From: Spirochaetota bacterium | GTDB taxonomy: Bacteria; Spirochaetota; Brachyspiria; Brachyspirales; JACRPF01 | Length of the DNA: 64,000 bases | Assembly: GCA_016214035.1 (NCBI GenBank) | Contig: JACRPF010000009.1 | Span: forward strand, 1-64,000 | Direction of reading: 5' to 3' | Shown: positions 28,492 to 36,855 of the stretch, one piece after another | Numbering within the stretch: the stretch's first letter is position 1 | Layout of the letters: every line of letters begins with the position of its first letter | Translations under genes and position numbers: made by a program | The notes under the pieces: model-generated | Seen by the model: the letters and a program-made list of their open reading frames with translations, nothing else | Told to the model about the DNA's origin: nothing | Database searches by the model: none

Positions 28492-28977
28492 TTATATCAG
28501 TGCTTTTTTCAGTTCATTTACATCCAGCTTTTTCATGGTAAACAATATTTTCATTGCTTTTTCGGCGATTGTTTTATCCGTAGAACTTATTATATCGGTG
28601 AACTCCACGGGGACGATCTGCCAGGACACACCGTATTTGTCTTTCAGCCATCCGCATTGCTGCGCCCCGGGGTCTCCGCCTTCCGATAGTTTTTCCCAAT
28701 AATAATCTGTTTCGTCCTGAGAATCGCAATTGATGATCAATGATACAGCCTCATTGAACTTGAATACATTACCGCCGTTCAGCGCTATAAATTGCGCTCC
28801 GTTAATCTCAAATTCAATGGTGCATATTGATCCCTCAGGTTTGCCATGAAATTCAAACCCGTCTTTTGTGTAACGAACGATCCGTCCTGCGCTGGAATTC
28901 GGGAATATCGAGGTGTAGAATTGTACTGCCTCTTCCGCCTCGACATCAAACCACAGGCATGTTGTCATTGGTTTCAT
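28492..28977 (-). CDS. VOC-superfamily (PhnB/3-demethylubiquinone-like) protein
   Basis: MTTCLWFDVEAEEAVQFYTSIFPNSSAGRIVRY..GAQFIALNGG..DKYGVSWQIVPVEF. Confidence 0.88.
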   Translation of the reverse strand: MKPMTTCLWFDVEAEEAVQFYTSIFPNSSAGRIVRYTKDGFEFHGKPEGSICTIEFEINGAQFIALNGGNVFKFNEAVSLIINCDSQDETDYYWEKLSEGGDPGAQQCGWLKDKYGVSWQIVPVEFTDIISSTDKTIAEKAMKILFTMKKLDVNELKKALI

Positions 28978-29062
28978 AAGTACCTCCGTAGTCGTTATTA
29001 GAAATTACATTATTTTTGGATGAAAAGCCGTAAACCCGCTATTGTGCAATCGTACCCCGACA

Positions 29063-29869
29063 TTAGTTTACTTTATTTGTGCGCGCGTTTATTTTCTTCT
29101 CTGTTTTCATTATATTTTCAAATCTCGTATTGCTTATCGGGTGGTGACTTACAATCTTGCCTTTATTGATTATGCAAAATGTGCCAAACGCGCAGGGGGA
29201 TTTCTGAGCGGATTCATAATCATTCATTTCAATCAATTCAGGATTAAGTTCTAATGTATTTGCAGTCTGAATTATTGCCTCAACATTTTTTACCGAATAG
29301 GGGCATTGCGGCGACCTCATAATTGTTAAGCCATTTGAATACTTTTCCAATGGATTATGGACGAATTTCGGATCATTTTCTTTGTCATTGAATTTGAACA
29401 CTAAAAGTTCAAAATCCGGTTTCATAGTATCAATTAAGGAAAACCCTTTTTTGATAAATATATCCTTCTTTGCCATAAATGAACCTTCTCTGGTTATCAC
29501 GGCTGCTCCATGCATCTTTTCTTTTTTTGCATCTGTAATGCACTCATCAAGAAGCATTGAGGCAAATCCTTTTCCTTTAAATTCTTTTTTAAATCCGACG
29601 AAAAGGCAATGAATGAACATATATCCTTCAGCATTGACAGGACGATGCGCATATTCGCCCGGGATGTATTCAAGCATTCCCTGGTATCCGCCTGACTTTG
29701 AGATCAAAGCCTTTATCCGAAGACCCTTGGGATAATACCTTTTGACCCAATCAACTTTTCTCTGCAGCTCACGATGCTTATGTATGTCTTTATAGCCGCA
29801 TACTCCATATCGTGCGATATTTTCAGGTGTTAGGTCAATTATCTGAATGTCATTTCTATTTGCTGCCAT
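29063..29869 (-). CDS. GNAT acetyltransferase with C-terminal YoaP-like domain
   Basis: KEFKGKGFASMLLDECITDAKKEKMHGAAVITREGSFMAKKDIFIKKGF; C-terminal CPYSVKNVEAI thioredoxin-like segment. Confidence 0.78.
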   Translation of the reverse strand: MAANRNDIQIIDLTPENIARYGVCGYKDIHKHRELQRKVDWVKRYYPKGLRIKALISKSGGYQGMLEYIPGEYAHRPVNAEGYMFIHCLFVGFKKEFKGKGFASMLLDECITDAKKEKMHGAAVITREGSFMAKKDIFIKKGFSLIDTMKPDFELLVFKFNDKENDPKFVHNPLEKYSNGLTIMRSPQCPYSVKNVEAIIQTANTLELNPELIEMNDYESAQKSPCAFGTFCIINKGKIVSHHPISNTRFENIMKTEKKINARTNKVN

Positions 29870-29979
29870 ACATCACCGCCTTTTTTATTTTAGCGCATCT
29901 ATTTTAATTGTCGGGGTGTGTCGCGAACACCGTGTTGTGTGAAGTTGCGGAGACAGTATATAATACATCACTCAGGAAA

Positions 29980-30399
29980 TTAAAGTTTTTCAACATAGTA
30001 TTTAAAATTGTTTAATATAGCTTGCCAGCCATTTCTTTGTAAATCAATACTATTCTGATTTTCAGCTTCAAAGTATTCTTCTATAACCACATTACTGCCG
30101 TTCTCTTTAAAACTAACAGTTACCTTGCGATTATCGCCAAGCGTGTATTCAATTGATTTATATTTTTCGATATTTGTGTATATTCCCCAAAAATCGAAGC
30201 CCGCACTTCCATCTTTTGCCTCCATTCTATAAGAAAACTTTCCGCCAATAACTAAATTATTTTCAGCTTTTCCAGTAATCCAATCATCGCTTGCATGATT
30301 CCAATTAACTACATGCTCTGGTTCAACCCAAGCCGTCCATACTTTTTTAATTGGTGCACAGATTGAAGCACTAATAAATATCGTTTTATTATTATTCAT
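29980..30399 (-). CDS. SRPBCC/AHSA1-family protein
   Basis: ISASICAPIKKVWTAWVEPEHVVNWNHASDDW..; C-terminal QRNGWQAILNNFKYYVE. Confidence 0.88.
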   Translation of the reverse strand: MNNNKTIFISASICAPIKKVWTAWVEPEHVVNWNHASDDWITGKAENNLVIGGKFSYRMEAKDGSAGFDFWGIYTNIEKYKSIEYTLGDNRKVTVSFKENGSNVVIEEYFEAENQNSIDLQRNGWQAILNNFKYYVEKL

Positions 30400-30438
30400 A
30401 GTTATTCCTTAAAATAATATTAATGTTTCCGCAATTTC

Positions 30439-30582
30439 GCCCAACGTACCGCGGGTTTGCGCCGTGCGGAAATGTCGCAAATCGGCGAGCTTCATGTGCC
30501 GAGCTTGTCGAAGCATGTGAGTAGCGGCATTGGAGCACGTGCACTGTGTCTGTCGAAGTGTGTCATGAACCCGCTGTTGTGT
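30439..30582 (-). repeat. attC-like recombination site (candidate 2)
   Basis: Gene-sense strand: ACACAAC-AGCGGGTT ... AACCCGC-GGTAC-GTTGGGC with an imperfect palindromic interior; GTTGGGC fits the GTTRRRY R' core. Confidence 0.6.
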
Positions 30583-30596
30583 GCTGTTGGTGCGTT

Positions 30597-31103
30597 TCAT
30601 TTAGATATCTCCCTGGCATTTAAAATATGAATGATTTTATTATTAATAATATTTACTTCTATCAAGAATGGAATTAACATTAACAAAATACAAGCAGGGG
30701 CAATAATTACAATTGCCATTTCATTGATTGGAGTTTTATCTTTAATTATTGCGATTGTTGATAAAATTATCATTGGAATTGATATAAGAATATAAAATAT
30801 GTACAATACTTTGACTGCGATATTTGCAAAGGTATATTTTACTGATATTTTCGTCATATTGTTATGCTCCTCAATATCTCCAATAACTATAGGCTTAAAT
30901 GGATTTTTAATTCTTATTATCCCAGTGAATACTATAGATAGATTTTTCGGCGTAACTTCACCTGAAAACATTTCTTTTTGAAATAATTTACTTGCAGTGT
31001 TTTTACATAATGTTTCATAAACTTTATAGTCATTTAGCTCAGAAATATATATCTTTTTCAAGCAAGGGAGTAATGGGAAATAATTTTCTAATGTTTTTTT
31101 CAT
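30597..31103 (-). CDS. Hypothetical protein with two predicted TM helices (cassette ORF)
   Basis: 168-aa ORF, AT-rich; hydrophobic segments VLYIFYILISIPMIILSTIAI and MAIVIIAPACILLMLIPFLI. Confidence 0.65.
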   Translation of the reverse strand: MKKTLENYFPLLPCLKKIYISELNDYKVYETLCKNTASKLFQKEMFSGEVTPKNLSIVFTGIIRIKNPFKPIVIGDIEEHNNMTKISVKYTFANIAVKVLYIFYILISIPMIILSTIAIIKDKTPINEMAIVIIAPACILLMLIPFLIEVNIINNKIIHILNAREISK

Positions 31104-31136
31104 TTTACATTTCTATTAATGAAACGCAGCAATGAC

Positions 31137-31252
31137 GCACGACGTTTGCGGGTTTACGCAGTGCCGGTCGCGGCGGATAAGCGCGAAGCGCAGCCGCGAC
31201 AGCGAGCGTGTATGCGCGAACGAAAGGCATGGCGATAAAGCCGCTGTTGGGC
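31137..31252 (-). repeat. attC-like recombination site (candidate 1)
   Basis: Gene-sense strand: GCCCAAC-AGCGGCTTTA ... TAAACCCGC-AAAC-GTCGTGC; R'' matches RYYYAAC exactly, R' degenerate. Confidence 0.55.
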
Positions 31253-31273
31253 GAAGTGCCGAGGTATAAAAAC

Positions 31274-32026
31274 TTATATCCTGTATCTTTCAATTGCATC
31301 TTTTCTCCAGTCCTCAATGGTATTTTGTTCAAGATTAAACATTGATGTGTATATATCAATAACAGCATTGTTTGTTTTCTTTATGAAATTGTAATTTAAA
31401 ATATCATTGGGTGGAAATGTAGAATCAGGTTCTAATGCTGGGTCAATGTAAATGTGTACCGGCAACTTATTCCATTTTGATGGTGCATAATGATTATGTT
31501 TATTTCTTACCCACAAAATCATTCCAATTGTATCTTTATTAGCATCAATAATGCTTTCTATATGAGTATACTTTACAGGATATGCAGCACTAAGCTTATT
31601 TAAAAGTTTTTTAATATTGAATTTAGACCCTTGGTCACTTTCAATGGCTTGCTTTTCACTACTGCATAATGCACTATTTTTGTTTGACAGAACTCTTTGT
31701 AGATGCTTTTTCAATGCATCATGTTGATCGCAGACGATTTTTAGCAATTTTATTGGTGACAGTTCATTTTTATTTAAAATAGAGGCCGCTTGATATGCGC
31801 CTTCAAGCTCCTCGAGTACAATATTTTCAAAATATCTCATTTCATATTCATTATCATTTACATATCGATAATATATGCCTTTTCCAGTTTCACAAAATGC
31901 GTGAGTTATTTCCTGATTCACTAATTTGATCACTGCGTTACATAATTTGCATTTTAGTTTTTCATTATTCTCATGTATCATTTCAGAATTACACTTCTTA
32001 CATTTTATCTCATTAGCCCAACTCAT
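31274..32026 (-). CDS. Zinc-ribbon protein with candidate HEPN-like C-terminal domain (cassette ORF)
   Basis: CKKCNSEMI..LKCKLCNAVI (two CxxC); MILWVRNKHNHYAPS contains an R-N-x3-H (Rx4H) HEPN-type motif. Confidence 0.6.
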   Translation of the reverse strand: MSWANEIKCKKCNSEMIHENNEKLKCKLCNAVIKLVNQEITHAFCETGKGIYYRYVNDNEYEMRYFENIVLEELEGAYQAASILNKNELSPIKLLKIVCDQHDALKKHLQRVLSNKNSALCSSEKQAIESDQGSKFNIKKLLNKLSAAYPVKYTHIESIIDANKDTIGMILWVRNKHNHYAPSKWNKLPVHIYIDPALEPDSTFPPNDILNYNFIKKTNNAVIDIYTSMFNLEQNTIEDWRKDAIERYRI

Positions 32027-32056
32027 AAATTCTCCTGGTTTTCACATCGGCATTTC

Positions 32057-32063
32057 GCCCAAC
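32057..32063 (-). repeat. Candidate integron R' core site (GTTGGGC) at the start of the cassette run
   Basis: Minus strand GTTGGGCGAAATGCCG upstream of the first cassette ORF; same GTTGGGCGAAAT string as at the 30439 site. Confidence 0.45.
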
Positions 32064-32384
32064 TTCAAATAGGCGAAATTCGTAAAAAGACTTAATCAGC
32101 GAAATAGACGACATTCGTAACATCCCGGATTCCGGAGGAGTATACGAAGTTCGTATGTCATTGTCTGTGTGCTGCATGTAAAGATGAAGTCTCATACATT
32201 CACCTGCATGGTTCTGTATAGTCGCGCTCATGGATGCTGCATCCGCGCTGAAGATATGCAAGTATACCGTGCATAGTTGAATTGTCAAACAATTCCGCCG
32301 CTTAATAGTTTCATCCCCCGGATTTGTCGACCGAGCGGAAGATTCTCATAATAAAGGTTCTCTGTGCCGGGTAACTGTTTCTTC

Positions 32385-36540: not shown

Positions 36541-36855
36541 GAACGGTTTTCTCGACCGAGCAGACAGCTTTCACGACCGCGCGGCGGACGGTTTTCTTAA
36601 TCGAGCGGATGGTTTTCTCGATCGAGCGGATGACTTTCTTGATCGAGCAGACGGTTTTCTCAACAAAGAAAATGTTTTTCTTAATCGAGCGGAAGACTTT
36701 CTCTATCGAGCAGACGGTTTTCTCAACAAAGAAAATGGTTTTCTCGATCAAGCGGATGACTTTCTTGATCGAGCGGAAGACTTTCTCAACAAAGAAAATG
36801 GCTTTCTCGATGAAGAAAATGATTTTCTTTGTCGGGAAAATGATTTTCTTTGGGG
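36541..36855. repeat. 21-bp degenerate tandem repeat array, about 15 units
   Basis: Units such as ggatgactttcttgatcgagc / agacggttttctcaacaaaga / aaatggttttctcgatcaagc. Confidence 0.92.

Follow-up and report, generated by a model that had tools for sequence, protein, structure and literature searches.

A probable decayed chromosomal integron in a member of the Spirochaetota, with a lost recombinase most likely of a kind without the additional domain

On the minus strand of the window, which is the whole stretch of 64,000 nucleotides analysed here, there is an array of gene cassettes at 32063-28492. This array is best explained as a decayed chromosomal integron, the recombinase of which most likely lacked the additional domain (I2) of integron integrases, and a probability of roughly 85% is assigned to this explanation as a whole. 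It is close to certain that the array is real and originated through integron decay, and likely that the lost recombinase belonged to the class without the domain, referred to below as the no-I2 class.

The original prediction was of a CALIN-like array: five AT-rich minus-strand ORFs, with attC-like strings in the gaps behind them and no IntI gene. All five ORFs are present, with GC contents of 0.31, 0.26, 0.32, 0.37, and 0.43 (ORF1 to ORF5) against 0.54 for the window, each of the attC-like strings that had been quoted is found in the sequence, and the two gaps said to have both outer cores, gaps 1 and 2, are complete attC-like sites. Cassette 1 (31143..32062) is made up of ORF1 (32026-31274, 250 aa) and attC1 (31252-31137), and cassette 2 (30445..31142) of ORF2 (31103-30597, 168 aa) and attC2 (30583-30439). 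Cassettes 3 (29928..30444; ORF3, 30399-29980) and 4 (29025..29927; ORF4, 29869-29063) end in truncated sites, attC3 (~29939-29915) and attC4 (~29047-29025), which keep the 5' half only, the 3' half with the R' box being deleted. ORF5 (28977-28492) is in a probable fifth cassette with a putative boundary (28492..29024); no attC was found behind it, which leaves the array with no defined 3' end. All of these features are on the minus strand.

The cassettes are thus in one orientation, each with one gene and an attC, as in an integron, with two of the four sites truncated. The sites in gaps 1 and 2 are imperfect palindromes with R''/L'' and L'/R' boxes and a crossover G|TT, as expected of attC, and depart from the standard layout in having a spacer of 1 nt on one side and 4–5 nt on the other, and an outer arm of ~20 nt. 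As the window has no integron integrase gene near these sites, two of which are complete and two halved, the array also falls within the definition of a CALIN, which has at least two attC. Two attC sites on contig C22 of the same genome (L043, 6422-6440 and 6890-6910) have likewise lost the 3' half including R'. Such loss looks like hairpin deletion, the adjoining cassettes then being fused.

While the CALIN-like reading holds in that this is a cassette array without an integrase, it missed that the array begins at a true attI, preceded by the integrase promoter and by the final codons of the deleted recombinase gene. The promoter (TTGACA-N16-TATACT, 32261..32288, minus strand) matches the consensus at 11 of 12 positions, is the best in the region, and would formerly have driven the lost recombinase gene. 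No whole IntI gene is present in the window, as had been stated, but a relic consisting of the last five codons and stop of a recombinase gene (ATGCAGGTGAATGTATGA, ...MQVNV*) is found on the same strand at 32192..32209, where 17 of 18 nt are identical to the end of the relic in C22. It is followed by attI (32062..32148, minus strand), with direct repeats ACGAATGTCGTCTATTT (32118-32102) and ACGAATTTCGCCTATTT (32083-32067) and the crossover G|TT at 32063/32062, 146 nt from the relic in both the window and C22. The attI therefore adjoins what is left of a recombinase gene, as it would in an integron; no intI gene with the additional domain is present in the window, where five codons of the recombinase gene are left.

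The 85 nt preceding cassette 1 recur at C22 and C11 (80–82% identical, E <= 1e-16), with a shorter attI copy at C19. Each of these copies heads a cassette array, and TTGACA-N16-TATNNT is found upstream of attI at all four loci, including the window. For the array on C6 no attI was found, though attC sites are present. The recombinase gene has been lost through a different deletion at C22, where it is internally deleted and a 157-aa ORF preceding attI is kept, at C11, where it is reduced to its first ~16 codons, and in the window. At C19, no remnant of the gene was recognised between promoter and attI. The presence of attI, promoter, and last codons at the start of the array indicates that it is what remains of an integron platform, and not a set of cassettes dispersed to some random site. 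The relic and attI, with the C22 counterpart at the same 146 nt, make the window a decayed integron in which the gene pointed toward attI.

Other features are shared by the window and C22. Small proteins encoded at window 37543-36950 and L043 1345-1713 are paralogous (53% identical), each beside a sigma-like ORF, the genes being ~5 kb upstream in the window and, in C22, ~300 bp upstream of the promoter. Both also have arrays of 21-nt tandem repeats, at window 36584-36850, within an ORF with a repeated heptapeptide, and at L043 1830-1930, just upstream of the recombinase promoter.

The lost recombinase of the window was most likely not a canonical IntI. The relic in C22 scores 106.7 bits (60 residues) with the no-additional-domain profile and 76.6 bits (61 residues) with the integron integrase family; it is deleted exactly at the position of the additional domain, the absence of which is therefore not directly readable there. 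Intact relatives of this relic, of 344–373 aa, are found in other genomes of the phylum, and six of them are without the ~33-residue additional domain present in IntI4 and in the IntI on contig C16 of the same genome. The spacing of the catalytic motifs is 58–62 aa in 25 no-I2 loci and 100 in 28 canonical IntI loci. Against IntI4, the profile of the group gives a match that is split in two, which would be expected if the additional domain is missing. A match to an N-terminal HARP domain is weak (E 1e-4 to 0.09) and below the cut-off. The attI core of the window matches, at 21 of 23 nt, the site behind the intact recombinase gene of genome G064, where ATACGAAGTTCGTCTATTAGTAG|TTAAA stands ~110 nt after the gene.

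In a tree from which the columns of the additional domain were excluded, and which samples one phylum and leaves out archaeal XerA, the no-I2 group and IntI are together apart from Xer (100/100). IntI is a single clade (100/100) that falls among the no-I2 proteins, a separate no-I2 clade not being rejected (AU p 0.265). By this sequence tree, the no-I2 recombinases are closer to IntI than Xer is.

It could be proposed that the no-I2 recombinases are bystanders and that canonical IntI in the same cells mobilises the cassettes in trans, which would make the integron class an ordinary one. The additional domain has been reported to be necessary for cassette capture by IntI, as Messier and Roy 2001 is cited in PMC7790495 and PMC2426708, and genomes G044, G144, G172, and G258 carry both kinds of recombinase. 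However, these are the only four genomes shared between the 78 with the no-I2 group (E <= 1e-60) and the 34 with canonical IntI among 298 genomes of the phylum, so that most no-I2 genomes are without canonical IntI. In addition, intact no-I2 genes adjoin same-strand arrays with similar attI cores, and in ~10 genomes the gene is followed at 60–220 nt by a first cassette that shares its strand. Cassette pairs with long arms occur at 16.8 per 100 kb behind the no-I2 group and at 2.2 behind canonical IntI, which is the background level (2 in 106 kb). This array signal requires flanks of 10 kb, being weak on 1.5-kb flanks (3 of 16 no-I2 loci). A detectable array does not follow all no-I2 genes: the first cassette is within 500 nt of the gene at 7 of 19 loci, and many contigs end directly behind the gene. 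The bystander explanation is on balance unlikely. That the no-I2 class is a working integron system is plausible, with the chances for it about even.

The genome does have a canonical IntI gene, found on C16 by the search for intI elsewhere in the genome that had been suggested (375 bits; similar to IntI4 of structure 2A3V, 4e-65). This canonical integron (L018, 8300-11414) has near-identical stretches without long ORFs among its cassettes, and the contig ends within the array. Dispersal of cassettes to secondary sites is established, and the array in the window might accordingly be a plain CALIN, with cassettes excised from the C16 integron and inserted in trans by its IntI at a secondary G|TT; the C6 array, with its attC sites and no attI found, would suit such an origin. 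Against this, the attC sites of the C16 array are of a different type (~58 nt, uniform, with balanced spacers) that is not detected by the window attC model, the C16 IntI gene points away from its array, and attI and promoter are common to the window, C22, C11, and C19. For the window, attI and the relic contradict insertion from C16, which is here improbable, although for the C6 array it is still possible.

In a genuine array, each cassette begins with bases derived from its own circular attC, which should be able to pair with those ahead of its own R'' box but not with those of any other cassette. This is seen for the ~25 nt that open each cassette: they pair best with the stretch preceding its own attC, the own score being the row maximum in 11 out of 11 cassettes (four in the window, four in C22, two in C11, and one in C6), and the own total was reached in 0 of 100,000 permutations. 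The complementarity between start and end is 17, 14, 16, and 10 for window cassettes 1 to 4, the last being weak but still the row maximum. In an unbiased scan of the whole 64-kb window for GTT/AAC pairs 250–1600 nt apart, the best two of 15,464 pairs by complementarity are those that delimit cassettes 1 and 3.

An attC covariance model had been suggested as a check on the array. The consensus of six attC sites of the genome from RNAalifold was poor, and a hand-written R/L structure was therefore used for the model (R2). The locally built model gives 78.8 bits for attC1 and 102 bits for attC2, so that the gaps withstand the check, and the model from six sites matches a seventh, untrained site on C19 (E 4.6e-9), which also lies inside a cassette array. 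The six sites taken by themselves show no significant covariation relative to shuffles, Rfam gave no attC family match at gathering or relaxed thresholds, and the window attC model found no site of this type in other genomes except for a weak match in G055. Nor do the five genes appear to be a stable core block, the other way in which the prediction might have failed, as the nearest relative compared does not carry them at the corresponding place. The GH42 gene upstream has an 85% identical counterpart in G001, where it is followed by a different gene, and an exact empty site could not be demonstrated. The AT-rich and orphan genes and the absent covariation signal might suggest an ordinary island of AT-rich DNA, or an operon of acquired genes, in which the spacers resemble attC by chance. 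This reading can be dismissed, as it is refuted by the permutation test of own-end complementarity and opposed by the match to the untrained site in another array, the attI copies elsewhere in the genome, and the absence of the block in the relative.

The cassettes of the no-I2 class have terminal inverted repeats of ~20 nt. At position 11 there is an A.C pair on the top strand (T.G on the bottom) in 41 of 54 cassettes from 18 genomes, and a Watson-Crick pair in five, while positions 9 and 12–18 are paired in 85–98% of the same cassettes, which were selected by a criterion blind to positions 10–12. The same A.C pair occurs at position 11 in cassettes 1, 2, and 3 of the window, which ties the window to the no-I2 class without use of the recombinase. 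The consensus of the cassette start is GTTRTRYGMAAT, from which the string in the original prediction, GTTGGGCGAAAT, differs at one position. In integrons the bottom strand is chosen by extrahelical bases; here the conserved A.C at position 11 of the outer arm is seen instead. The predicted folding energy differs little between the strands, and the mismatch may help to select the bottom strand.

In its living form, the decayed integron would have had a promoter driving the gene of a tyrosine recombinase, oriented toward attI, and beyond attI the cassettes in the same orientation as this gene. Its recombinase, most likely of the IntI-like kind without the additional domain, would have joined attI, read as double-stranded DNA via its pair of direct repeats, to a cassette site folded from its bottom strand. 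This site has a long stem made up of the cassette termini over ~20 bp, the crossover G|TT, and a 7-bp inner stem. The A.C at position 11 of the top strand would be a T.G wobble on the bottom strand, and may label the latter as the substrate. A deletion then took the recombinase gene except for its last codons, freezing the array and leaving the promoter ~225 nt upstream of the first cassette. The old promoter may now read through attI into the cassettes, which, given its retention at this distance, are probably still transcribed.

For the cargo, the predictions for ORF3, ORF4, and ORF5 are supported. ORF3 is an SRPBCC protein (AHSA1 match, 1.8e-18), ORF4 a GNAT-YoaP protein (YoaP, 1.9e-13), and ORF5 has a VOC fold (Pfam 3-dmu-9_3-mt, 3.9e-45). 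ORF1, predicted as zinc ribbon/HEPN-like, is an orphan except for a weak, sub-threshold zinc ribbon, and as its fold model has a pLDDT of 36 the HEPN-like assignment is left unsupported. ORF2 is a hydrophobic orphan. No relatives of ORF1, ORF2, or ORF3 were found in the 60 other genomes searched. The nearest relative of ORF4 is 71% identical and belongs to a distant genome of the same phylum (G051; L118, 5143-5964), with no detectable array around it. The first cassettes of the sister decayed arrays are defence-like: DUF4297 and HerA in C22 (L043, 2675-5637), Mrr in C11 (L042, 3619-4491), and a STAND NTPase in C19, with a FokI-like nuclease in the second cassette there (L111, 10810-8429). These first cassettes adjoin the retained recombinase promoter, which would be consistent with useful cassettes being kept beside the promoter after loss of the recombinase.

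The additional domain has been treated as the mark of integron integrases, which were selected by it in PMC2426708 and PMC8352920, and as needed for cassette capture. Searches that require the domain would miss the recombinases of the no-I2 relatives, and standard detection may in this way be skipping the recombinase of some CALINs that are in fact integrons. In the literature searched, which excludes most subscription journals, no description was found of an integron whose recombinase lacks this domain. Since they lack a part thought to be essential for integrons, the no-I2 relatives may bear on integron evolution. It is an evenly balanced proposition that the spirochaetes have widespread, working no-I2 integrons that read a long, almost perfect cassette hairpin marked by one conserved A.C mismatch, and that their recombinases, closer to IntI than any others known, may be the lineage that gave rise to it through a gain of I2. 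If so, the group, at attI and with arrays, would allow the origin of single-strand cassette recombination to be tested using genes already available.

Among known systems, the integrons of Treponema denticola and T. succinifaciens, in which the integrase gene points toward attI (PMC3607928), resemble that of the window in belonging to the same phylum, in having a recombinase gene that precedes attI and is oriented like the cassettes, and in having a chromosomal array. They differ from the no-I2 class in that their IntI has the additional domain and their arrays are without long complementary cassette ends; the integrase of G163, whose coordinates agree with those listed for T. succinifaciens in PMC3607928, is in the canonical set (415.9 bits, spacing 100). 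The integron remnant of T. phagedenis has kept attC sites and cassettes and lost its integrase gene (PMC3607928), as has the window, where in contrast attI, promoter, and gene ends remain, and where the loss occurred separately at several loci of one genome. A CALIN is likewise an attC array without a nearby integrase gene, but the window has attI and a gene relic. Finally, CTXphi is integrated by XerCD at a folded single strand (PMC4792948, PMC7790495); XerCD lack the additional domain, and the folded site imitates double-stranded DNA (PMC4792948). The no-I2 class shares with this system a recombinase without the domain and a hairpin mimicking double-stranded DNA, but whereas CTXphi is a phage that borrows the XerCD of its host, the no-I2 class has a dedicated recombinase beside attI and a cassette array comprising several genes.
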